A stretch of 35,338 nucleotides of DNA from Methanomassiliicoccaceae archaeon (lineage in GTDB: Archaea; Thermoplasmatota; Thermoplasmata; Methanomassiliicoccales; Methanomethylophilaceae): the NCBI GenBank assembly GCA_003555025.1, contig PWHV01000009.1, positions 1 through 35,338 of the forward strand, in the 5' to 3' direction. A program made the translations under genes and the position numbers. Below the pieces are notes generated by a model. The model had not been told where the DNA came from, searched no databases, and saw only the letters and a list, made by a program, of their open reading frames with translations. This document shows, piece after piece, positions 1-27,458 of this stretch (within the stretch, counting starts at the first letter, position 1; each line of letters begins with the position of its first letter).

Positions 1-476
1 AAGATGTCAGGGTGCTTGCGCACCATGTCGTCGCCCTCGGTCACGGATATCAGGACCAATCGCTTGTCGGCGCCCAGAGGGAAGTCCGACGGGCAGACGA
101 GGTTGCCCACGTTCTCGATGAACAGCACGTCCACGTTGTCTAGGTCGAGCTTCTCCAGCGCATGGTCGACCAGATGGGCGTCCAGGTGGCACTCGGAGCC
201 GGTGTTGCAGTTCACCGCCTCAACGCCGGCGTTGCGCAGGCGGATGAAGTCGTCCTCTCCGGTCACGTCGCCAGCGACCGCGGCGACCTTGAGGCCGCGG
301 TCGCGTAGGGCCTCGGCCATCCTGATGATCAATGCGGTCTTGCCGGCGCCGATGGAGCCCATCATGTCGACCGACCTCACTCCCTTGGAGCGCAGAAGCT
401 CGCGGTTCCCCTCGGCGAGGCGGCGGTTCTCCCCGAGCACGTCCAACTCCATACCGATCTCGGTGATCTTGTGCAC
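1..476 (-). CDS. hypB: Hydrogenase nickel incorporation GTPase HypB (3' end outside window)
   Basis: SIMIBI-class GTPase that helps insert nickel into [NiFe] hydrogenase with HypA. The minus-strand translation begins MHKITEIGMELDVLGENRRLAE and has the Walker A segment GSIGAGKT at about residues 40-47. It continues with AGDVTGEDDF, the cysteine-containing NCNTGSECHLDAH segment and ENVGNLVCPSDF, all typical of HypB. There is no His-rich N-terminal stretch. The GTG at 476 is chosen because an in-frame TGA lies four codons upstream and a minus-strand TATTAA (499-504) sits about 26 nt upstream, fitting a leaderless mRNA; the alternative start is the ATG at 452. The gene runs off the left edge, so the C-terminus is not seen. 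hypE lies 14 kb away, so the maturation genes are dispersed. Confidence 0.93.
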   Translation of the reverse strand, partial: MHKITEIGMELDVLGENRRLAEGNRELLRSKGVRSVDMMGSIGAGKTALIIRMAEALRDRGLKVAAVAGDVTGEDDFIRLRNAGVEAVNCNTGSECHLDAHLVDHALEKLDLDNVDVLFIENVGNLVCPSDFPLGADKRLVLISVTEGDDMVRKHPDI

Positions 477-14602: not shown

Positions 14603-15649
14603 TCAGCAGATCCGCGGCACCGGGTCTCCGACGGGCGGCTCCAGCACCCGGCGCCCGCCCATCTCCGTCCTGATGACCACGCGGTCGTACTCGGCGGTGG
14701 CGTACCCTATCAGCGCCGCGTCCTCGCCCTCGGGGTGGGAGCGAAGCGCCGCGAGCACGTCCTCGGCCGCCTCCGGCACACAGGCTATGACCGCCTTGCC
14801 CTCGTTGCCGATGCTCAACGGGTCTATGCCCAGGAGCTCGCAGGCGTTGTTCACCGTCTCGCTGACCGGTATCGCCGGACCGTCCAGCTCGATGCCGACG
14901 GCGGATTTGGAGGACCACTCGTTGAGGCAGTTGGCCAAACCGCCGCGGGTGGGGTCCTTTATGGTCACGATTCCTCCCGCCTGCAGCGCCGAGGCGATCA
15001 TCCTGTTCAAGGGGGCCACATCGCTCTTCACATCGGTGTCGAATCCGTAGCCCTCGCGGAAGGACAGCAGCGCCACTCCATGGTCCCCCAGGCGGCCGCT
15101 GACGATCAGGGCGTCCCCGGGGGCGACGTTGTCATCGGTCAGCCAAGCGCTCTTCACCTCGCGGCTTCGACGCGCCCTTTCCAAATTGGAGTCCATATGA
15201 GGCGACCTCCGGCCGATGCCCGAGGTCACTATCACCATCCCGTCTATGCCTCCGGACTCGATGACCTTGGTGTCCCCGGTGACCACCGGGACGCCGCAGG
15301 CGCGGCTGGCTTCTGCGAGGCCGGCCATAACGCGGTCAACGGTCTCCATGTCCAAGCCCTCCTCCATTATGACGGCGCTGGACAGGGCGACGGGCTCGGC
15401 GCCCATCACTGACAAGTCGTTGACAGTCCCCGCCACGGACAGCGAGCCGATGTCCCCGCCGGGGAAAATGAGGGGCTTGACGGTGTGCCCGTCGGTGGTG
15501 AACACGATGCCGTCCACCACCGCGGAGTCGTCCAGGGCCTCCAAGGGCACCTCGGACGCCGTTCCCTCCAGGTGGGACAGCACGTGCCGGGAGACGAACT
15601 CCTGCATGAGCTCCCCGCCGGCACCGTGGTTCATTATCACCTTCTTCAT
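14603..15649 (-). CDS. hypE: Hydrogenase maturation protein HypE
   Basis: AIR-synthase-fold protein that dehydrates the carbamoyl group on its C-terminal cysteine to make the cyanide ligand of [NiFe] hydrogenase. The N-terminus MKKVIMNHGAGGELM, the GDIGSLSVAGTVNDLSVMGA block, DPTRGGLAN and the terminal PRIC with the acceptor cysteine are all present. The protein is 348 aa, the normal length, so it looks functional. The frame is open further upstream, but the conserved N-terminus starts at ATG 15649, with a TTATCTT box about 26 nt upstream on the minus strand. It is divergent from endA. Confidence 0.96.
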   Translation of the reverse strand: MKKVIMNHGAGGELMQEFVSRHVLSHLEGTASEVPLEALDDSAVVDGIVFTTDGHTVKPLIFPGGDIGSLSVAGTVNDLSVMGAEPVALSSAVIMEEGLDMETVDRVMAGLAEASRACGVPVVTGDTKVIESGGIDGMVIVTSGIGRRSPHMDSNLERARRSREVKSAWLTDDNVAPGDALIVSGRLGDHGVALLSFREGYGFDTDVKSDVAPLNRMIASALQAGGIVTIKDPTRGGLANCLNEWSSKSAVGIELDGPAIPVSETVNNACELLGIDPLSIGNEGKAVIACVPEAAEDVLAALRSHPEGEDAALIGYATAEYDRVVIRTEMGGRRVLEPPVGDPVPRIC

Positions 15650-15670
15650 GCCCCTGCAACGAGGACGTTG

Positions 15671-15679
15671 AAGATAACC
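15671..15679 (-). promoter_or_regulatory. TATA-like box for hypE
   Basis: AAGATAACC on the plus strand (GGTTATCTT on the minus) is centred about 26 nt upstream of the hypE ATG and supports the shorter hypE start. Confidence 0.4.
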
Positions 15680-15774
15680 CTTGCCTACAACCGCGCCTTT
15701 AACGATGACGGTCGAAGGCATGGTCGAGGACCCCTCGACCAAGGGCTCCAGCGCCACGGCGCAGGAACAAGCAA

Positions 15775-16939: not shown

Positions 16940-17017
16940 GGGCCCGTAGGGTAGCTAGGATTATCCTTTCGGCCTTCGGAGCCGAAAACCGGGGTTCGAA
17001 TCCCCGCGGGCTCGCCA
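16940..17017 (+). tRNA. tRNA-Arg(TCG), integration target of the adjacent element
   Basis: The acceptor GGGCCCG (16940-16946) pairs with CGGGCTC (17007-17013) with one G-U pair. The D-arm is GGGTAGCTAGGATTATCCT. The anticodon arm is TCGGC-CTTCGGA-GCCGA with anticodon TCG (16976-16978). The T-arm is CGGGG-TTCGAAT-CCCCG. The discriminator is G and CCA is encoded. The last 17 nt including the CCA recur at 22160-22176, so the 3' end serves as the attachment site while the gene remains complete. Confidence 0.95.
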
Positions 17018-17018
17018 T
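17002..17018. repeat. attL, 17-bp direct repeat in the tRNA 3' end
   Basis: CCCCGCGGGCTCGCCAT covers the 3' half of the T-stem, the acceptor 3' strand and the CCA. It is identical to 22160-22176. Homology extends leftward over GGTTC-N4 (16993-17001), so 22 of 26 positions match. Confidence 0.9.
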
Positions 17019-17067
17019 ATTCCTTAGCCAGACAATGGAGAAAAATTTCTATTGAACCTTCACCGTA

Positions 17068-18045
17068 TCAGACGCCCTCCTTTCCCTTGGTCTTTTCCGA
17101 CCAGAACGATCTCATTTCCTCTACGGCGGACTTCTGCTCCTTGTCGCAGTAGTTCCTTTGCGTGGTGGCCAAGGATGTGTGACCCATAGCAAGGGAAACG
17201 TTATGGAAGTCTTGACCTTCGTTCACTGCACGTTGACCGAAAGTTCGTCTACATTTCCGGAGGTCAAATCTTTCACCAATATCCGTTTCCACATGGGTCT
17301 TGAAAATTCGTATGCTCTTGTACGAGAGGAAACCGCCGTCATTGAATATCGGCGGGAATAACGCATCCTCGTCCTTTCCACACGAATTAAGTTTGATTCT
17401 TCTTGCTACAAGGTATCTACTGAGTATTTCCACACCGTCAATATGGACAGGCACCCAACGGGCTTGCCCGTAACTACCTTCTCCCTTGACACGTTCAGCG
17501 AATATCTTCGCCCCATTCTCATCAATTATGACGTTATGGACGGAAAGCAACCGGAGTTCCTTAGCACGCAGTCCGGTGCAGATGGCGACAGTTACAAGCC
17601 CATATGCCTCCATAAGCTTCCAATCTTCAACATCGATTATGGAGGCGCGTTCGATTATCATCTCAACGATTTCATCTTCCATCGGTGGAAGGCGAATGTG
17701 ATTTGTTTTTGGAACATGAGAGGGATATCTCACTTTGAAACGATTTACAGAGTCATTGTCAAAATAGACAAACAGCTTGCTGAGATATGAGAGGTCTTTC
17801 TGGATCGTTGTGTTCTTTACACCGCTCTTCTTACGGTATCCGACGAAAATATCAATATCCTTCTCCGATATCTTGCGGGGATTGTCAGAGGATACTTTTC
17901 CGTCACCTTTCAGTTGATGAAATATCTTTCCAATCTGCCTAAGTCTTCTCTTTGTGGTGGCTAATGTCTCATCCGATAGGTGACCGTCTTCCGCAGGAAG
18001 ATATTCGTTCAAACAATCAGTAAAAGGATATCGCCCCATCACCAT
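17068..18045 (-). CDS. Tyrosine recombinase (integrase)
   Basis: 325 aa site-specific recombinase. An N-terminal SAM-like core-binding domain (about 8-110) precedes the catalytic domain. Catalytic residues visible are Arg160 in CTGLRAKEL, Lys187 in RVKGEG, Arg266 in RKCRRTFGQ, His289 in MGHTSLATT and the nucleophile Tyr299 in QRNYC. The usual first His of the HxxR box is Arg263. The gene ends 50 nt inside attL and reads toward the tRNA. It is complete, not split by integration as in SSV-type elements. Its start overlaps the upstream gene by 7 nt (ATGGTGA), so the two are coupled. It is presumed to catalyse integration at the 17-bp site. Confidence 0.93.
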   Translation of the reverse strand: MVMGRYPFTDCLNEYLPAEDGHLSDETLATTKRRLRQIGKIFHQLKGDGKVSSDNPRKISEKDIDIFVGYRKKSGVKNTTIQKDLSYLSKLFVYFDNDSVNRFKVRYPSHVPKTNHIRLPPMEDEIVEMIIERASIIDVEDWKLMEAYGLVTVAICTGLRAKELRLLSVHNVIIDENGAKIFAERVKGEGSYGQARWVPVHIDGVEILSRYLVARRIKLNSCGKDEDALFPPIFNDGGFLSYKSIRIFKTHVETDIGERFDLRKCRRTFGQRAVNEGQDFHNVSLAMGHTSLATTQRNYCDKEQKSAVEEMRSFWSEKTKGKEGV

Positions 18046-18401
18046 ATCTCCAAATCTGAAAACTCTCGATTCTCAAGGTTAACAACGAACTTTTCAAACT
18101 CGAGTATTATGTCGCGTTCTTCATTGGTAAGATTGGACAATGGGAAATCGCGGATGAAAGAGGCCAAACGGCTAATATCAATCAAACGAGACAATTTCCG
18201 GTAAATCAATACGCCTTCTTCATAATCAAATTCTTCATATGTTTCAAATGAAATGTATCCAGACGATCGATTTTTCAATTTGCATTCGGTTTCCGATTGG
18301 CCACCGGCTTCACTACGGCATTGATTGTTGTATCGTATCTGTTCGATACTGTTTAACTTACTAATGTTACTAATATTATTACTAATTACCATCATTACCA
18401 T
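18039..18401 (-). CDS. Small charged protein coupled to the integrase, function unknown
   Basis: Up to 120 aa with no recognised domain. The C-terminal half is acidic and predicted helical (SRLASFIRDF, ERDIILEFEKFVVNLE). It overlaps the integrase start by 7 nt, so a role in controlling recombination, such as a directionality factor, is possible but a guess. ATGs at 18401, 18395 and 18392 are all in frame. A minus-strand ATAAATAG (about 18416-18423) would give a transcript starting near 18392-18397. The N-terminal codons coincide with the TTACTAA repeat cluster, so residues 1-15 are low-complexity. Confidence 0.6.
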   Translation of the reverse strand: MVMMVISNNISNISKLNSIEQIRYNNQCRSEAGGQSETECKLKNRSSGYISFETYEEFDYEEGVLIYRKLSRLIDISRLASFIRDFPLSNLTNEERDIILEFEKFVVNLENREFSDLEIW

Positions 18402-18443
18402 TATTACTAACCAAACTATTTATGTCTTTTCCATAATTAGTAA
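18358..18443. promoter_or_regulatory. TTACTAA repeat cluster between divergent genes (operator or iteron candidate)
   Basis: TTACTAA occurs at 18358, 18367, 18379 and 18404, with related TTACC at 18386 and 18395. The reverse complement TTAGTAA is at 18437-18443. Most spacings are 7-12 nt. The cluster lies between the integrase operon and the AbrB-like gene, overlapping the start of the former. It could be an operator for the AbrB-like protein or iterons for Rep. Confidence 0.5.
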
Positions 18444-18455
18444 CATTGGGATTAT

Positions 18456-18776
18456 ATGGTGTTCGTTGGGAAAACAAAAATCGATGGAACAAGAAGAATC
18501 AGTTTCATCAAAGAACTGGCGGATCTTCTGGAACTCGAGGCAGGGGATGAATTACAATATCATGTGGAGAATGGGAAAATTGTGGTCTATAAAGATACCA
18601 AAATATATCCGGGAGGGTTCGAATTCGAATCGAAGGAGATTGAGCAACGTCTTAAGGAATATGAAAATGAGCGTATAGACGATTTCGTTGACGAAGCAAC
18701 AATGGATCATGATGAATTAGAAAGGAGAGCTTATAAACAATATCTTAAAGATAAGGAAAAAAATAAAAATTTATAA
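18456..18776 (+). CDS. AbrB/SpoVT/MazE-like DNA-binding regulator
   Basis: 106 aa. Residues 1-48 (KTKIDGTRRISFIKELADLLELEAGDELQYHVENGKIVVYK) fit the swapped-hairpin AbrB fold. The C-terminal half is very charged and helical (EIEQRLKEYENERIDDFVDEATMDHDELERRAYKQYL). Such proteins are either transcription regulators or antitoxins; no recognisable toxin is adjacent, so a regulator of the element is more likely. The ATG at 18456 is divergent from the integrase operon across the TTACTAA cluster. Base use is clearly AT-rich. Confidence 0.78.
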   Translation: MVFVGKTKIDGTRRISFIKELADLLELEAGDELQYHVENGKIVVYKDTKIYPGGFEFESKEIEQRLKEYENERIDDFVDEATMDHDELERRAYKQYLKDKEKNKNL

Positions 18777-18797
18777 ACGACCCAAATAGTATCTTAA

Positions 18798-20528
18798 TTA
18801 TTTGCAAGTTGTTTCTAATAAAGAAGCATCATCGTTTAGAACCCCATTCATCTTTACTACGATATACATTCTAAAGGCTAAGACATTCCAATCAACATTC
18901 ATACGCGAAGTACCAACAAACCAACTTTTAATCCGTTTTGGGGCAATTCTAATCGCAAATTTAAAAACTGAAGGTTTTTCTCGCTTGCTATTAGAAAACT
19001 CTTGCGTTTTAACATTTTTTAATACGTATTTAACAAACTCGGGTGGGAGGACAGTCTTAGTGTTCATTGATGACAATTCCGATTCCATCAAATCTACAAT
19101 CGCATCATTTTTCAATATATCTCCCCGAGATTTATTTGCACCATATTTAGCAAATCCAATCTTAGGCATTGACTTTGTAACAATATCTTTATAAAGTCTT
19201 TTATCAGTTCTAAGGCGGTCTGGAGTTCTCCTAATTTCTTCTATTATTTTTCTTGATAATAATGGGTTCAGCACTTCAATATATGGCGTTTTTAAATCGG
19301 TTAATGAAGAGAGTATTGTTGGTATACGATATTCATGATACAGTCTATCTCTGTATGCGGCCAGAGTTTCATCATCTCCTTTATCTAGTATTTCTGGTAT
19401 CGTTTGTTTATGAAAACCGTATTTTTCATAATCTTTTAAATTTTCAAAGTCAGAACAAACTCCTAAACCGGTACTTATCCTTGCTTGTATAGATGAATTG
19501 ACGGGTACCCAACCAAATCCCTCATCGCCTCTAATAATGCCCTCAACACCATCTTCAAATAATTTTTTAAAAATATTGAAACCATCCATATATCCCGATA
19601 TATGGTCTATTCGCCCCTCACCGTTAATTATGAATCTTTCAACTATTTTTTCAATTGGCTCTTCCCCAACATCCGTAAAATAATAATTATGCGGTAATTG
19701 CACGTATTCAGCCAATTTCTTTGCCACATAAGCATCATTGCCTTTTTGATCCAAAGAATGCTCTAACCCCCATGTTATGGTGATCAGTTTTTGATTATCA
19801 GCATCCTCACGATTAATAAAATATAAAATTCCCCTACTATCGTAGCCTCCGGAAAGAGGTAAAACCCATTTCGAATAATCCAATCTTGTCTCTTTTAATG
19901 TTTTTTTAAGAATCTCAATTAACCGAGTCTCAGACGATTGACCATCCTTCTGGTCGTTAATGAATTCCACTCTGTTCTTTTGTTTGCTTATTGTCCACTT
20001 ATGCCTATCTAGAACAATCGTGGTGTCGGGCGGTACAATTTTAAATCGTTTATCCCAAGAATTTGAGAGCCCCATGGATCCGGTTGACATAAACCATGGA
20101 ATGACTTCTTGATTGAATTCAAAACTACAAATTAGCATTGTTATTGCTCTCTGTGAGGTAGATGCTATAAAAACTTCATCATCTTTATAATACCATATTG
20201 TTCTCGAGCCAACAATATCACTAATCAAATTAATGGAATCATTGCCTGCCTGAATTATCACATAGGAGCCGTCCAAATCTTCCTTTTTGGCCTCCCACCA
20301 AGGATATTTTTCACTCAACAAACACCCTAGTAAAACACTATTTTCATGTTCTAAAACCGAATCAACCGGATTTACAATTCCATAAGCAATCCCCTCACTT
20401 CTCGATATTTTTGGAGGATTGGGGGCAATGTTGTCAGGAGATATTTCATTACAAACACATCTCATAGATTCTTCTATATTTGGAGGGTTTAATCGGTTTT
20501 TATAACAAACATAAATGATTTTAGACAT
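18798..20528 (-). CDS. Asparagine-synthetase-like protein without N-terminal catalytic Cys
   Basis: 576 aa, AsnB-related. The N-terminal part (to about 190) resembles the class II glutamine amidotransferase fold (DLDGSYVI, SDIVGSRTIWYY, FIASTSQRAI), but residue 2 is Ser and no Cys follows the initiator, so it should not hydrolyse glutamine. The ATP-pyrophosphatase domain is intact with LPLSGGYDSRG (SGGxDS, 226-231) and a later RGDEGFGW. Known Cys-less relatives catalyse amide or lactam formation, for instance lasso-peptide cyclases, but no precursor or McjB-like partner is present. The gene is the most AT-rich in the window. GGTGA sits 4 nt before the ATG. It appears to be cargo; its substrate is unknown. 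Confidence 0.82.
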   Translation of the reverse strand: MSKIIYVCYKNRLNPPNIEESMRCVCNEISPDNIAPNPPKISRSEGIAYGIVNPVDSVLEHENSVLLGCLLSEKYPWWEAKKEDLDGSYVIIQAGNDSINLISDIVGSRTIWYYKDDEVFIASTSQRAITMLICSFEFNQEVIPWFMSTGSMGLSNSWDKRFKIVPPDTTIVLDRHKWTISKQKNRVEFINDQKDGQSSETRLIEILKKTLKETRLDYSKWVLPLSGGYDSRGILYFINREDADNQKLITITWGLEHSLDQKGNDAYVAKKLAEYVQLPHNYYFTDVGEEPIEKIVERFIINGEGRIDHISGYMDGFNIFKKLFEDGVEGIIRGDEGFGWVPVNSSIQARISTGLGVCSDFENLKDYEKYGFHKQTIPEILDKGDDETLAAYRDRLYHEYRIPTILSSLTDLKTPYIEVLNPLLSRKIIEEIRRTPDRLRTDKRLYKDIVTKSMPKIGFAKYGANKSRGDILKNDAIVDLMESELSSMNTKTVLPPEFVKYVLKNVKTQEFSNSKREKPSVFKFAIRIAPKRIKSWFVGTSRMNVDWNVLAFRMYIVVKMNGVLNDDASLLETTCK

Positions 20529-20764
20529 ATTTTCACCATTATCATTATTTTTAGGAATTATATATTGTTATTACCAGTCATATATCAATCGTCTCTTAAC
20601 AATTTAATAAATATATAAATTAATCCGTTAATAAAATATGGTTCCTATTTGCTGTATTAGAGATATGAATATAATTAGAAACATTACAGTTGTTTTAATT
20701 CAGGCATATACTAATCAAGTCGTACGGTCTCGCTACCGCTTCGACCCCGGACGAGGATTTCGTT

Positions 20765-20788
20765 CGCCCCGCGGATAACCTCGGGGCG
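20765..20788. repeat. Hairpin A
   Basis: CGCCCCG (20765-20771) pairs with CGGGGCG (20782-20788) around a 10-nt loop. It is 16 nt from hairpin B. Confidence 0.6.
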
Positions 20789-20804
20789 CACTCAATCCCC
20801 CCGC

Positions 20805-20827
20805 GGGCAGCGGCGCAACCGCTGCCC
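20805..20827. repeat. Hairpin B, perfect 9-bp stem
   Basis: GGGCAGCGG (20805-20813) pairs perfectly with CCGCTGCCC (20819-20827) around the loop CGCAA. A short T run follows on the plus strand, so it could also end transcription. Stable stem-loops of this kind are common at rolling-circle origins. Confidence 0.65.
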
Positions 20828-20910
20828 TTTATGAGGATAGCCTATGGTGCCTGGAGTAAGGGATGGGAAAAAAAGCCGTAGCTGAAATACAGGAATCAGT
20901 CAAGAACCTA

Positions 20911-20926
20911 GTTACTCTTGAGTAAC
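20911..20926. repeat. Palindrome at the 3' end of the Rep-like gene
   Basis: GTTACTCTTGAGTAAC has perfect 7-bp arms around TT and lies 5 nt beyond the Rep-like stop codon. It may be a terminator for Rep or part of the origin. Confidence 0.55.
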
Positions 20927-20930
20927 GGCG

Positions 20931-22055
20931 TCAAGAGTGCGGAGGATCGGAACCTACGGACAACGTTTTCTCTTCCTTCTTTGCGCGGATGATGTCGCCT
21001 ACCCAAGACGGTATCGTTCTGAGACGGATCCACGGCGATGGCCCCTCAGGAGACGTTTCAGGAAGAAGTCCTATCTTATCCTTGAAGGCCTTGCCGATGT
21101 TGAGGTCCCTGGTGCGGAAACACTTGTTGCAGAAATGCGTCCATAAGGCGGTCCTTAAGGAAGGATTGGAAATCTCATCAATCGAACCGGCCTCCATGAG
21201 TTCGGGAGATCTCTTCAGATCGATGGATTTGACCATATACTTGTAGATATACGACAGCTCGTTCCTGGAGCCCATGAAACGTTCACCGCGGACTATGCCC
21301 TTGATGTCCATTATACCGTGGCTCCAGATGGGATTGTCCTTGAAAGAATCAGGATCGGTGAACGCCCTCCTCCTGTCCTTATCGGTCTTGCCGACGCGAG
21401 CCTGATCCCGACGATTGGCCAAGCGCCAAGATTGTTTTCCGTCCCTGCTGCTGTGCCTCTTTACCAGTATGGACCGGTCAAGTATGATAAGCAGATGCGC
21501 GGCAGGATAGCCCCTGCTCTGCGCCTCCTTGACGACGATCTTCCCATTATGGCCGAATATACTGCTTATGTTCGCTCCGAAATTGTTAAGTTCGCCCCCT
21601 TCTGAGCTTAATAGAAACCAAGCATCCTCCATCTCATAATCCCTCTGTGAGAATGAGAGCGTTATGAACAAATGATTCGTGAACCGATAATTAGATCTCC
21701 ACCCTGGTGCATCGAAATCAAACTCTTTTTTGTCATATAGACGGGCAATCTCCTCAAGTTGTTTCCTTTTACGATAAGCATACTGGCGATTACCTCTCTT
21801 CCGGGTGGTTATGTATTTGATTTCTCCCGTTTCCTTGTTCTTGAAGACATTGTCATTGTCTGTCAAAACCCAATCGAGGAATTCTCGTTGCAATACCTTG
21901 TCACGAAGAGTCGTCGTTCTGGAAATCAACGCATCCTTCAGTTCGCTACCATGCCGCCACTCGCCACCCGAAGAAGATTTGAAACGGTATGGGGCATACC
22001 CTGAGGCCTCCTCGGTACCGTTTGACCCAACGGGTTGTAATGGATTCGATTCCAT
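20931..22055 (-). CDS. Putative rolling-circle (HUH-type) replication initiator
   Basis: 374 aa. The order and spacing of three blocks fit Rep proteins of rolling-circle plasmids: FITLSF at about 130-135 (motif 1), KEAQSRGYPAAHLLIIL at about 176-192 (motif 2, normally PHxH), and SYIYKYMVKSID at about 268-279 (motif 3 with Tyr269, Tyr271, Tyr273 and Lys272). The first metal-binding His of motif 2 is Ala here, so metal binding may be altered. No helicase domain is present. It sits just inside attR, with hairpins at its 3' side. It is less AT-rich than the other element genes. Assignment is from motif pattern, not overall similarity. Confidence 0.68.
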   Translation of the reverse strand: MESNPLQPVGSNGTEEASGYAPYRFKSSSGGEWRHGSELKDALISRTTTLRDKVLQREFLDWVLTDNDNVFKNKETGEIKYITTRKRGNRQYAYRKRKQLEEIARLYDKKEFDFDAPGWRSNYRFTNHLFITLSFSQRDYEMEDAWFLLSSEGGELNNFGANISSIFGHNGKIVVKEAQSRGYPAAHLLIILDRSILVKRHSSRDGKQSWRLANRRDQARVGKTDKDRRRAFTDPDSFKDNPIWSHGIMDIKGIVRGERFMGSRNELSYIYKYMVKSIDLKRSPELMEAGSIDEISNPSLRTALWTHFCNKCFRTRDLNIGKAFKDKIGLLPETSPEGPSPWIRLRTIPSWVGDIIRAKKEEKTLSVGSDPPHS

Positions 22056-22159
22056 CCACGTTAACGTCTACGGTGTCAAAATCACGGCAAATTCTATCGC
22101 CGGAAAATGAGGTTTAATAGAATTATTTCTCAGTTATCTGGCTTAAGCTAGGTTCAGTA

Positions 22160-22176
22160 CCCCGCGGGCTCGCCAT
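22160..22176. repeat. attR, 17-bp copy of the tRNA-Arg 3' end
   Basis: CCCCGCGGGCTCGCCAT is identical to 17002-17018. GGTTC at 22151-22155 also aligns with the tRNA T-arm at the same spacing. No rest of a tRNA is present here. It marks the right end of the element; the Fic gene ends 21 nt further on. Confidence 0.9.
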
Positions 22177-22197
22177 CATCATTCACCAAGATTGTTT

Positions 22198-23310
22198 TCA
22201 GGCTTCCTTGAGATGGCGGAACGGGTCATTGAAACGGAAACGGGTGGCCTTGGTCCTGCCCTCCTTCTCCAGCACGCCCATCTCGACAAGGCGGTTGAGC
22301 CGGTGCCTGATGCGCTGCTCGCCCAGGGACGGCACCCAATCATTGGCGTCATTCACGGTGAACCACGACCGCCCCTTGGCCTTGACGGCGATGGTCTTCG
22401 ACGCCTCGTCGAGCTCGCGGAGCACGTCTTTGCGGCGGAACCCGTCCATGGCTGACACATAGGCGTCATGGAGGGATTCGAGCACATAATCGATGATGGG
22501 CCCGTAATCCTGCGTCTCGTCAGTGTAGGCCAAGAGGTCGTAATAGGTTTCCAAGGCCCCCAATATCTCCTTCTCGATCTTGCACAGCTTGGAATTCTTG
22601 AGGCCCAGCTCCTGCAGCAGGATGTGGAACATCGTCCTGCCAGCGCGTCCGTTGCCGTCTTCGAAGGGATGAATGCTCTCGAACTCATGGAAGAAGAGTG
22701 TGGCCGTGACCACCTCGTCGAACGGCGACGAGTTCAACCATACCAATAATGAGGCCAACTCCTCGGTTATGTGTTCAGGGGGGCAGGTGTGGAAGTATTC
22801 GAAACCGTCCTGGCCGCTTATCGAGGTCCTGTTCTCTCGGAATCCGCCCGCCACGCCTCTGATGCCCGCCTCGCGGGTAAGGAGGCCGTGGACGATTCGG
22901 ACGGTATCGATGCTCCAAGGAAGCGAGAGTTCAACTTCGGTGAAGAATGAGTAAAGATGATTGACTATCTCCTGTCTGGGGCCATCCGTATCTATGCTTC
23001 CTGCTCCGCCCTCCAGGACGGCGGTGGTTATCCTCCTCACCTCCTGCTCGTCGAGGGGGTTCCCCTCGATGGAGACCGACCGGTGGATGTTGGAGGCGTA
23101 CGCGTCCCTGAAGAGCTCCAAATATTCCCGTTCGCCGAAGACCATGCAGTCCAGCTCGGAATCCAGGTTTCTGAGCTCACTCAAAAGCTTGCGGTGCTCC
23201 AATCCGATTCTGATGCGAGGTTCGAACGGTACCTTGCGACGGTGCTTCACCGGATAGCCTTTTGGCTTGTAGATGGAAAAATCCGTACGATTACGGTTGA
23301 CCGTGACCAT
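22198..23310 (-). CDS. Fic-family protein (AMPylator type) with C-terminal winged helix
   Basis: 370 aa. The Fic core HPFEDGNGRAGR (214-225) matches the active HxFxDGNGRxxR consensus, so nucleotidyl transfer to hydroxyl groups of target proteins is expected. An N-terminal inhibitory helix motif SVSIEGN (78-84, S/T-x3-E-G/N) marks an auto-inhibited class II Fic. The C-terminal 80 residues (IRHRLNRLVEMGVLEKEGRTKATRF) form a winged-helix DNA-binding domain, as in the common Fic-wHTH proteins thought to autoregulate. A TATATA (23335-23340) sits about 27 nt upstream of the ATG, indicating a leaderless mRNA. GC-rich like the host, it lies just outside attR. Confidence 0.93.
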   Translation of the reverse strand: MVTVNRNRTDFSIYKPKGYPVKHRRKVPFEPRIRIGLEHRKLLSELRNLDSELDCMVFGEREYLELFRDAYASNIHRSVSIEGNPLDEQEVRRITTAVLEGGAGSIDTDGPRQEIVNHLYSFFTEVELSLPWSIDTVRIVHGLLTREAGIRGVAGGFRENRTSISGQDGFEYFHTCPPEHITEELASLLVWLNSSPFDEVVTATLFFHEFESIHPFEDGNGRAGRTMFHILLQELGLKNSKLCKIEKEILGALETYYDLLAYTDETQDYGPIIDYVLESLHDAYVSAMDGFRRKDVLRELDEASKTIAVKAKGRSWFTVNDANDWVPSLGEQRIRHRLNRLVEMGVLEKEGRTKATRFRFNDPFRHLKEA

Positions 23311-25140: not shown

Positions 25141-25238
25141 ACAAGGGCGGCGGAAGAGCCCCGCCCCTGTCTGAGATGACCATCAGAGGACCGAGCAAAA
25201 CTTATTCTATTTCAAAACGGTTCCGAAACAGGTTTCCC

Positions 25239-25568
25239 ATGAGCTCCAAGGTGAGAGTGAAGAACAACATCTGCAACAAGACCTCGATGATAGAGGTGAG
25301 CATGAACGAGAACTGCGGCTTCGACGTGCAGATAGAATCGGAATGCCAGAACGTCCGCCGCTTCGCCGATTTCGTCAAGGAGCTCAGCATGGACGACCTC
25401 ACCGACAAGAAGGACAGCCTCGTCATCAGGACCTACCAGGAGCAGGAGATGAGCGCCAACTGCCTGGTGCCGTCGGGCATACTCACCGCCGCCTGGATGG
25501 AGTCGGGCATGATCTCCAAGAACCGGTTCAAGGCGGTGGAGAGGAACTGCGTCGAATTCGTTGAATGA
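25239..25568 (+). CDS. Small cysteine-containing protein, possible DUF6951-like
   Basis: About 109 aa from the ATG at 25239 (an ATG in the upstream open frame at 25176 would add 21 residues that include the probable TATA region). Five Cys occur at spaced positions (NICNKT, NENCGF, SECQNV, SANCLVP, RNCVEF). The segments FDVQIESECQNVRRFADFV and ANCLVPSGILTAAWMESGM resemble the small methanogen proteins grouped as DUF6951. That match is from memory of pattern, not a search. A metal- or cluster-binding role would fit the cysteines but is not shown. Confidence 0.6.
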   Translation: MSSKVRVKNNICNKTSMIEVSMNENCGFDVQIESECQNVRRFADFVKELSMDDLTDKKDSLVIRTYQEQEMSANCLVPSGILTAAWMESGMISKNRFKAVERNCVEFVE

Positions 25569-25768
25569 CGTCCATCGTTCAAGGGAATGACGGGACGGGA
25601 GGGAACGGACGCGACCGTGCGGGAATCCCAGCCATGGTCATATCGATATCATTACTTCAATTTTTTTCAGTATACGAGGGCGGTCTCATGGTCGCGGCAG
25701 CTCGGACGGCACGGGGCCTTATGGACCGGCCTCCTGAGCGCCGATGAATGCGACGTTTGTCTAACCTA

Positions 25769-25803
25769 TTTATAGTCCTCAAGGGCAACACTTTGCAAGG
25801 TGT
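25769..25803 (+). promoter_or_regulatory. Heliorhodopsin promoter and ribosome binding site
   Basis: TTTATA (25769-25774) predicts a transcript start near 25798. GGTGT (25799-25803) then precedes the TTG at 25809 by 5 nt, the same spacing as at rps17e. Alternatively the GTG at 25800 could act as a nearly leaderless start. Confidence 0.45.
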
Positions 25804-25808
25804 TAATC

Positions 25809-26600
25809 TTGAGCGAGAACGCAAGCGTATCACAGGCCTCTGACGAGGCCGAATATCTGAACCTGAGGAAGTGGAACGCCGCCTTGGGCGTGCTGCATCT
25901 GATACAGGGCGTCATCATGGTGCTGGTGAGCGAGAGGTTCGTCGTGGACATCAAGACCTATTTCCTCGGCCCTCTCAATGCTGGGTTCGGGACTACAACG
26001 GAGACGGTTTTCTCCTTGAACCTGGGTCCCGCCATAGCCGCCTTCCTGTTCATGTCGGCGATCGCCCACTTCACCATGGCCGGGCCCCTGTACGGATGGT
26101 ACGTGGCCAAGCTGAAGGAGAGGATCAACTACATCCGCTGGATAGAGTACTCCTTCTCCTCGTCATGGATGCTGGTCATCATCGCCCTGCTCTGCGGCGT
26201 CTTCGACCTCGGCGCGCTGATACTCATCTTCGGCAGCTGCGCGGTCATGAACCTCTGCGGCATGCTGATGGAGATGAGGAACCAGAACCGCGAGGAGGTT
26301 GACTGGATGCCCTTCTGGGTCGGTTGCATAGCCGGCATACTGCCATGGATAGTGCTGTTCCTCTACTTCTTCGGCGCCATCCTCGGCGCCAGCGACGCGG
26401 TGCCCACCTTCGTCTACGGCATAATCATCAGCCTGTTCATCGTGTTCAACGTGTTCCCGCTGAACATGGTGCTGCAGTACAAGAAGGTCGGCAAGTGGGA
26501 GGACTACCTCTACGGCGAGAGGGGATACATGATCATGAGCCTGGTGGCGAAGACATTGCTGGCCTGGCAGGTCTGGAGCGGAACCCTGTCGCCGATGTGA
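25809..26600 (+). CDS. Heliorhodopsin
   Basis: About 263 aa, seven hydrophobic helices. Helix 7 MSLVAKTLLAWQVWSGTL carries the retinal Schiff-base lysine (about Lys248). Helix 3 RWIEYSFSSSWMLVIIA carries the glutamate counterion (about Glu113) and the Ser-rich heliorhodopsin signature. His in HLIQGV (about 30) and AIAHFTMA (about 87) correspond to the conserved histidines in the Schiff-base cavity. Type 1 rhodopsins have a DxxxK/RW-type helix 3 instead. Heliorhodopsins sit inverted in the membrane; their role is unsettled, with proposed signalling, enzyme-regulating or transport functions. The start is TTG 25809 or GTG 25800. It is monocistronic, with no retinal-synthesis gene in the window. 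Confidence 0.93.
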   Translation: MSENASVSQASDEAEYLNLRKWNAALGVLHLIQGVIMVLVSERFVVDIKTYFLGPLNAGFGTTTETVFSLNLGPAIAAFLFMSAIAHFTMAGPLYGWYVAKLKERINYIRWIEYSFSSSWMLVIIALLCGVFDLGALILIFGSCAVMNLCGMLMEMRNQNREEVDWMPFWVGCIAGILPWIVLFLYFFGAILGASDAVPTFVYGIIISLFIVFNVFPLNMVLQYKKVGKWEDYLYGERGYMIMSLVAKTLLAWQVWSGTLSPM

Positions 26601-26765
26601 GGCGCCATATCAAACCTCTTAAACCATTTTCATCTAAGATCACGCGATCTTCGCGGCTCAGCCTCTTCGACCGAGTAGCGGTCCGATCCTTCTACGAACG
26701 CCCATAAGAATGTCCGCCTCTTGCGCAAGGGAACTGATTTTTACGTTCGCGTTGTTCACTGCACT

Positions 26766-27458
26766 ATGACCTCGGACCTGTGCGAAGAGCTCAGAACGAC
26801 GTCGACGGCGATGGGTGTCGAGTTCTTCGGCATCGCCCCCGCCGCCGGCTTCGAGAACGCCGATTACCAAGGGAACCGCCCGCGGGGCATAATGCCGGCG
26901 GCGGACTCGGTCATTGTGCTGGCGGTCAAGGTGCCCCGCGGATGCATCGAGCCGCTGCCGCAGGCGCGGGCGGAGTACACCAACACCCTGCTGGCGGGGA
27001 CGGTCACGTTGCGCTTGGCCGCGTTCCGCCTCGCCCAGGCCCTCGAATCAAAAGGCCACAGGGCCAGCGTCATACCCATCGAGGGGAGCGAGTTCGGCTA
27101 CTGGTACGCCGACAAGGAGACGCTAAAGGCCGACGTGTCGGTGAAGTACGCCGCCTATCTCGCCGGCATGGGGCGCTACGGGGTGAGCAACCTCCTCCTC
27201 CTGCCGGAGATCGGGCCGCGGGTGAGGATGACCGCGGTGGTCACCGACGCCGTACTGGAGAAGGGTGCTCCCCTGCAAGGGTTCAAGGACCCCCGCTGCG
27301 AGGACTGCCTCGCCTGCGTCAAGGTCTGCCCCGCCGGGGCGCTGCATGCCGACGGCTCCATATCCCGGCACGGGTGCAAGGAGTACATGTTCTCCACCCT
27401 CGAGGGCCTGAGGTGCGGCCTCTGCGTCAAGGCCTGCGTGGACGTCTTTGAACGTTAG
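26766..27458 (+). CDS. Epoxyqueuosine-reductase-like 4Fe-4S protein
   Basis: 230 aa, COG1600-like. The C-terminal part has a ferredoxin motif CEDCLACVKVCP (four Cys) and a second set (CKEYMF...CGLCVKAC), enough for two [4Fe-4S] clusters. The N-terminal half (GIAPAAGFENADYQGNRPRGIMPAADSVIVLAV) matches the QueG-like fold that in true QueG holds cobalamin. It is much shorter than bacterial QueG and lacks the HEAT-repeat tail, so it is more likely one of the archaeal short homologues of unknown substrate. The ATG at 26766 lies about 27 nt after a TTTTTA element. It ends in TAG and overlaps the convergent epimerase by 4 nt. Confidence 0.82.
   Translation: MTSDLCEELRTTSTAMGVEFFGIAPAAGFENADYQGNRPRGIMPAADSVIVLAVKVPRGCIEPLPQARAEYTNTLLAGTVTLRLAAFRLAQALESKGHRASVIPIEGSEFGYWYADKETLKADVSVKYAAYLAGMGRYGVSNLLLLPEIGPRVRMTAVVTDAVLEKGAPLQGFKDPRCEDCLACVKVCPAGALHADGSISRHGCKEYMFSTLEGLRCGLCVKACVDVFER

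Follow-up and report, generated by a model that had tools for sequence, protein, structure and literature searches.

The heliorhodopsin gene and its neighbourhood

The window, meaning the whole 35,338-nucleotide stretch analysed here, is a contig (C33) of a 1.41-Mb genome that is 97.4% complete. It carries a heliorhodopsin gene together with the following features.

3-476, minus strand: HypB, cut by the contig end (TIGR00073, 198.7 bits; cut-off 121.2)
14603-15757, minus strand: HypE (TIGR02124, 368.2 bits; cut-off 251.6)
17068-18045, minus strand: tyrosine recombinase, within a 5.2-kb integrated element
18456-18776, plus strand: MazE-like protein, within the element
18798-20528, minus strand: asparagine-synthase-like protein, within the element
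20931-22055, minus strand: rolling-circle Rep (weak match), within the element
22198-23310: Fic-domain protein, just beyond the element's right repeat
25176-25568, plus strand: DUF6951 protein (PF22263, 2.2e-17)
25764-25808, plus strand: TATA-like box near 25770 and GGTG Shine-Dalgarno-like motif (25797-25800), kept in four congeners
25809-26600, plus strand: heliorhodopsin, 263 aa, TTG start (PF18761, 1.3e-93; PDB 6is6, 2.4e-69; model pLDDT 91.5)
26721-27458, plus strand: 4Fe-4S protein, weakly QueG-like

The heliorhodopsin reading frame was confirmed at the coordinates given by the first-pass annotation, and its start at 25809 agrees with an alignment of four congeners, which favours this TTG over an upstream GTG at 25800, rejected as a start. 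In all four, the order of the TATA-like box, GGTG and then TTG or GTG is kept, while the remaining intergenic DNA upstream of the gene has diverged. Since the two motifs persist amid diverged sequence, they are probably the gene's own promoter and ribosome site.

Comparison of neighbouring genes in related genomes, as suggested in the first pass, placed the DUF6951 gene directly upstream in all four congeners examined, and the 4Fe-4S protein downstream in two of the four; the latter is also found beside heliorhodopsin, differently arranged, in one further genus of the family. The comparison revealed no widely conserved partner gene, and a conserved operon partner was rejected, as each recurring neighbour is confined to one or two genera and none spans the order.

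The integrated element occupies positions 16940-22188, at tRNA-Arg(tcg), with direct repeats at 16993-17030 and 22151-22188 that have a 17-bp exact core in common. Its GC content is 0.35-0.49, against about 0.6 in the surrounding DNA. Heliorhodopsin was rejected as cargo of this element, for the gene lies 3.6 kb beyond the right repeat, in backbone common to the congeners.

A tree of 100 rows places the window protein in a clade composed only of Methanomassiliicoccales (support 100/99); at least three subclades of heliorhodopsin are represented in the order. Heliorhodopsin is under purifying selection, with dN/dS of 0.08-0.32 between members of the genus; for other pairs in the order the range is 0.04-0.19. 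Judged from these sequence comparisons, retention by vertical descent within the genus would be the best explanation for the presence of the gene.

Adjacent pairs, with members from two apparently old subclades, also occur among the heliorhodopsins of the order. In each of two genomes (G037 and G051), two copies that belong to different subclades lie side by side, and the paired genes at L064:7784-9488 and L073:7993-9781 adjoin an ArsA-like ATPase and a thioredoxin-like small protein. A degraded heliorhodopsin fragment, with one TGA and two TAG codons in frame, was observed in a further relative (G046; locus L022, contig G046:C48); in Methanomassiliicoccales, TAG may instead encode pyrrolysine.

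Predicted fold and retinal-site residues of the protein

The window protein covers positions 1-242 of 242 of the PF18761 Heliorhodopsin profile, and its nearest PDB chains by sequence are those of TaHeR of Thermoplasmatales archaeon SG8-52-1 (6is6/7u55, E 2.4e-69). Foldseek matched its AlphaFold2 model (mean pLDDT 91.5) best to TaHeR as well (7clj/6is6, TM 0.91/0.95-0.96), with type-1 rhodopsins far lower in the ranking (E about 1e-3). The model predicts seven helices (3-40, 72-91, 108-128, 134-157, 167-193, 200-224 and 233-259), a long A-B beta hairpin (strands 45-71) and a B-C loop helix (95-103), the latter two being family traits. An inverted topology, with the N terminus inside, may go with this TaHeR-like fold, but loop charges alone give no decision. 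Profile, PDB match and model fold thus agree with the original assignment: the gene encodes a full-length, bona fide heliorhodopsin.

The first-pass annotation had also read a Schiff-base lysine in helix 7, a glutamate in helix 3 and two cavity histidines from the sequence. With numbering from the TTG at 25809, all four proved invariant in two alignments, one of 23 sequences from the order Methanomassiliicoccales and the other of 50 that span many phyla.

25896-25898, plus strand: His30 codon, first cavity histidine
26067-26069, plus strand: His87 codon, second cavity histidine
26145-26147, plus strand: Glu113 codon, counterion position, helix 3 (RWIEY)
26550-26552, plus strand: Lys248 codon, Schiff-base lysine, helix 7 (SLVAK), paired with SLVAK of TaHeR

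Asn23, Gln33, Arg110, Tyr114, Glu155 and Ser244 are likewise invariant in both. The SxxxK rule for the retinal-binding lysine of helix 7 (PMC9166423) describes the window protein too (S244-L-V-A-K248). Glu113 pairs with the TaHeR position that is Asp in 7clj, an E108D mutant. At residue 157, at the end of helix 4, the His of most heliorhodopsins is replaced by Arg in the window protein's clade (ELHNQ to EMRNQ).

TaHeR (6is6, 7u55, 7clj) is therefore alike in family, fold and about 46% sequence identity, and in its Schiff-base lysine, counterion glutamate and two cavity histidines. It differs in the His that it, like most others, has in place of Arg157, in lying outside the window protein's Methanomassiliicoccales-only clade, and in its host, the host here being a methanogen with the genes described below. 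A second relative, 48C12 (6su3, 6su4, 6uh3), is alike in family and fold (TM 0.85-0.91) and is 44% identical to the window protein; its source is actinobacterial, unlike the archaeal host considered here.

The methanogen host and the question of its retinal

The host genome encodes McrA (551 aa; TIGR03256, 924 bits) and the large and small subunits of a Vhu-like [NiFe] hydrogenase adjoining an HdrA-like gene. The host is therefore a methanogen of the order Methanomassiliicoccales, and HypB and HypE, both recognised in the first pass and both above their profile cut-offs, have an actual hydrogenase on which to act. The H2 metabolism and anoxic life proposed from those two genes are upheld, and sharpened, by these findings; by kinship, the organism would be an H2-dependent methyl-reducer.

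The nearest named bearers are the metagenome-assembled genomes (MAGs) B1Sed10_99 (95% identical), CSSed10_308 and CSBr16_145, filed as Methanomassiliicoccaceae or Methanomethylophilaceae. B1Sed10 and CSSed10 are datasets from soda-lake surface sediments of the Kulunda Steppe, and rhodopsin-bearing haloarchaea and Bacteroidetes are known from these soda-lake sediments of the congeners; the rhodopsin scan of the soda-lake MAGs used PF01036 only (PMC6146748).

A photoreceptor in such a lineage had raised the question of where its retinal comes from, and a search for Blh/Brp and carotenoid genes had been proposed. Profile searches of the host genome returned neither Blh/Brp (PF15461) nor an RPE65-type cleavage oxygenase (PF03055), and did return a carotenoid cluster of apparently acyclic type. 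Among 61 relatives, Blh was over the cut-off in none. Across 389 Thermoplasmatota genomes, heliorhodopsin was over the cut-off in 46 and Blh in 13 (all of one family), with no genome holding both, and RPE65 was found in none. The Blh search works, since true members were recovered in the same phylum with E-values down to 1e-55. As chance alone would give an overlap of about 1.5 genomes, the zero observed is no evidence of avoidance; the point of the count is that 46 heliorhodopsin genomes do without a known retinal-forming oxygenase.

The retinal puzzle is not new in kind, having been published for other heliorhodopsins. The TaHeR host is also reported to be incapable of retinal synthesis, and a fenestration in TaHeR has been postulated to let in exogenous retinal (PMC9385722). 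Added retinal is rapidly bound by heliorhodopsin (PMC9296517). Heliorhodopsins of Bathyarchaeota, likewise anaerobic archaea but of another phylum, come from hosts in which a carotene dioxygenase was not found, an absence noted in nine MAGs (PMC7110647). Combined with retinal, those of Thermococcus, Mesotoga and Dehalogenimonas, strict anaerobes that are not methanogens, absorb light of 530-539 nm (PMC7807009). The family, the fold, the missing-retinal puzzle and strict-anaerobe bearers (TaHeR, Thermococcus, Mesotoga, Bathyarchaeota) are hence already known. We found no paper joining heliorhodopsin with Methanomassiliicoccales, RumEn M2 included, though survey figures or supplements may mention them; heliorhodopsin and rumen appeared together only in a paper on CPR bacteria.

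A proposed role for heliorhodopsin in methanogens

We consider it likely that the protein is a stand-alone, retinal-scavenging photosensor of a Methanomassiliicoccales methanogen, vertically kept and without ion pumping. The gene would probably be transcribed from its own promoter, and retinal, not made by a known route, may be taken up from neighbours (for example, haloarchaea of soda-lake surface sediment) or from elsewhere in the environment. Absorption of light, at a wavelength probably near 530-555 nm, would set off a slow photocycle without ion pumping, and this may pass a sensory or regulatory signal to a protein partner; the signal could plausibly protect a cell that is sensitive to oxygen from oxidative damage or damage by light. 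A family-wide sensory role against photo-oxidative stress has been proposed (PMC8612252), and other heliorhodopsins are reported to regulate an enzyme or transporter that partners them (PMC9529153, PMC11109279).

The bearers from dark habitats fit badly with a pure light-sensing role. RumEn M2, a cow-rumen enrichment grown on H2 and trimethylamine (PMC10658910), has an intact heliorhodopsin (locus L113), as does locus L066. The sampled RumEn M2 genome (G032) has neither phytoene synthase nor Blh, and the heliorhodopsins of RumEn M2 and of a relative (G011), which also lacks phytoene synthase, show dN/dS of about 0.10. The RumEn M2 protein may serve outside the rumen, or its role may not be centred on light. 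These intact, selected copies speak for a protein that mainly acts as a regulator binding retinal or retinoids, or as a membrane scaffold, light being of secondary importance. We regard this as unlikely, given that the Schiff-base and counterion site residues are all invariant, as expected of a photoactive retinal protein. The corresponding wider proposal, that Methanomassiliicoccales, dark gut species included, keep their heliorhodopsins on scavenged retinal for roles not centred on light, such as retinoid-gated regulators, is held with equally little confidence.

It appears more doubtful still that the host produces retinal itself, with an unrecognised enzyme that needs no O2 and uses a carotenoid as substrate. 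The starting material could come from a cluster on another contig of the genome (G000:C19), where phytoene synthase, a CrtI/D desaturase (NF058655, 658.8 bits; cut-off 640) and a UbiA prenyltransferase lie together, and phytoene synthase is present in five of the six genomes of the genus. However, from what is known of these families, the CrtB-CrtI-UbiA cluster is read as an acyclic, bacterioruberin-type route, and such a route yields no beta-ionone ring. Nothing in the host genome exceeded the cut-off for lycopene cyclase PF18916. Moreover, heliorhodopsin occurs in 22 of the 61 relatives and phytoene synthase in seven, with 16 of the 22 heliorhodopsin bearers lacking phytoene synthase.

A light-driven ion transporter would be very improbable, as the closest solved relatives of the protein are TaHeR and 48C12, neither of which is known to pump ions. 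Such a function does exist in the family, the viral heliorhodopsin V2HeR3 being able to transport protons (PMC9448325). Finally, a relic or mis-binned gene of no present function, conceivable for a contig of a binned assembly with a broken copy in the relative G046, was rejected as scarcely credible: the same neighbours recur in four congeners from separate assemblies, the clade is exclusive to the order, and purifying selection and the conserved probable promoter argue against a relic.

The gene extends heliorhodopsins to the methanogens, and the retinal question has here been put to whole genomes. Because RumEn M2, one of the bearers, has been described in enrichment culture, a methanogen's uptake of retinal and its response to light are open to direct testing.
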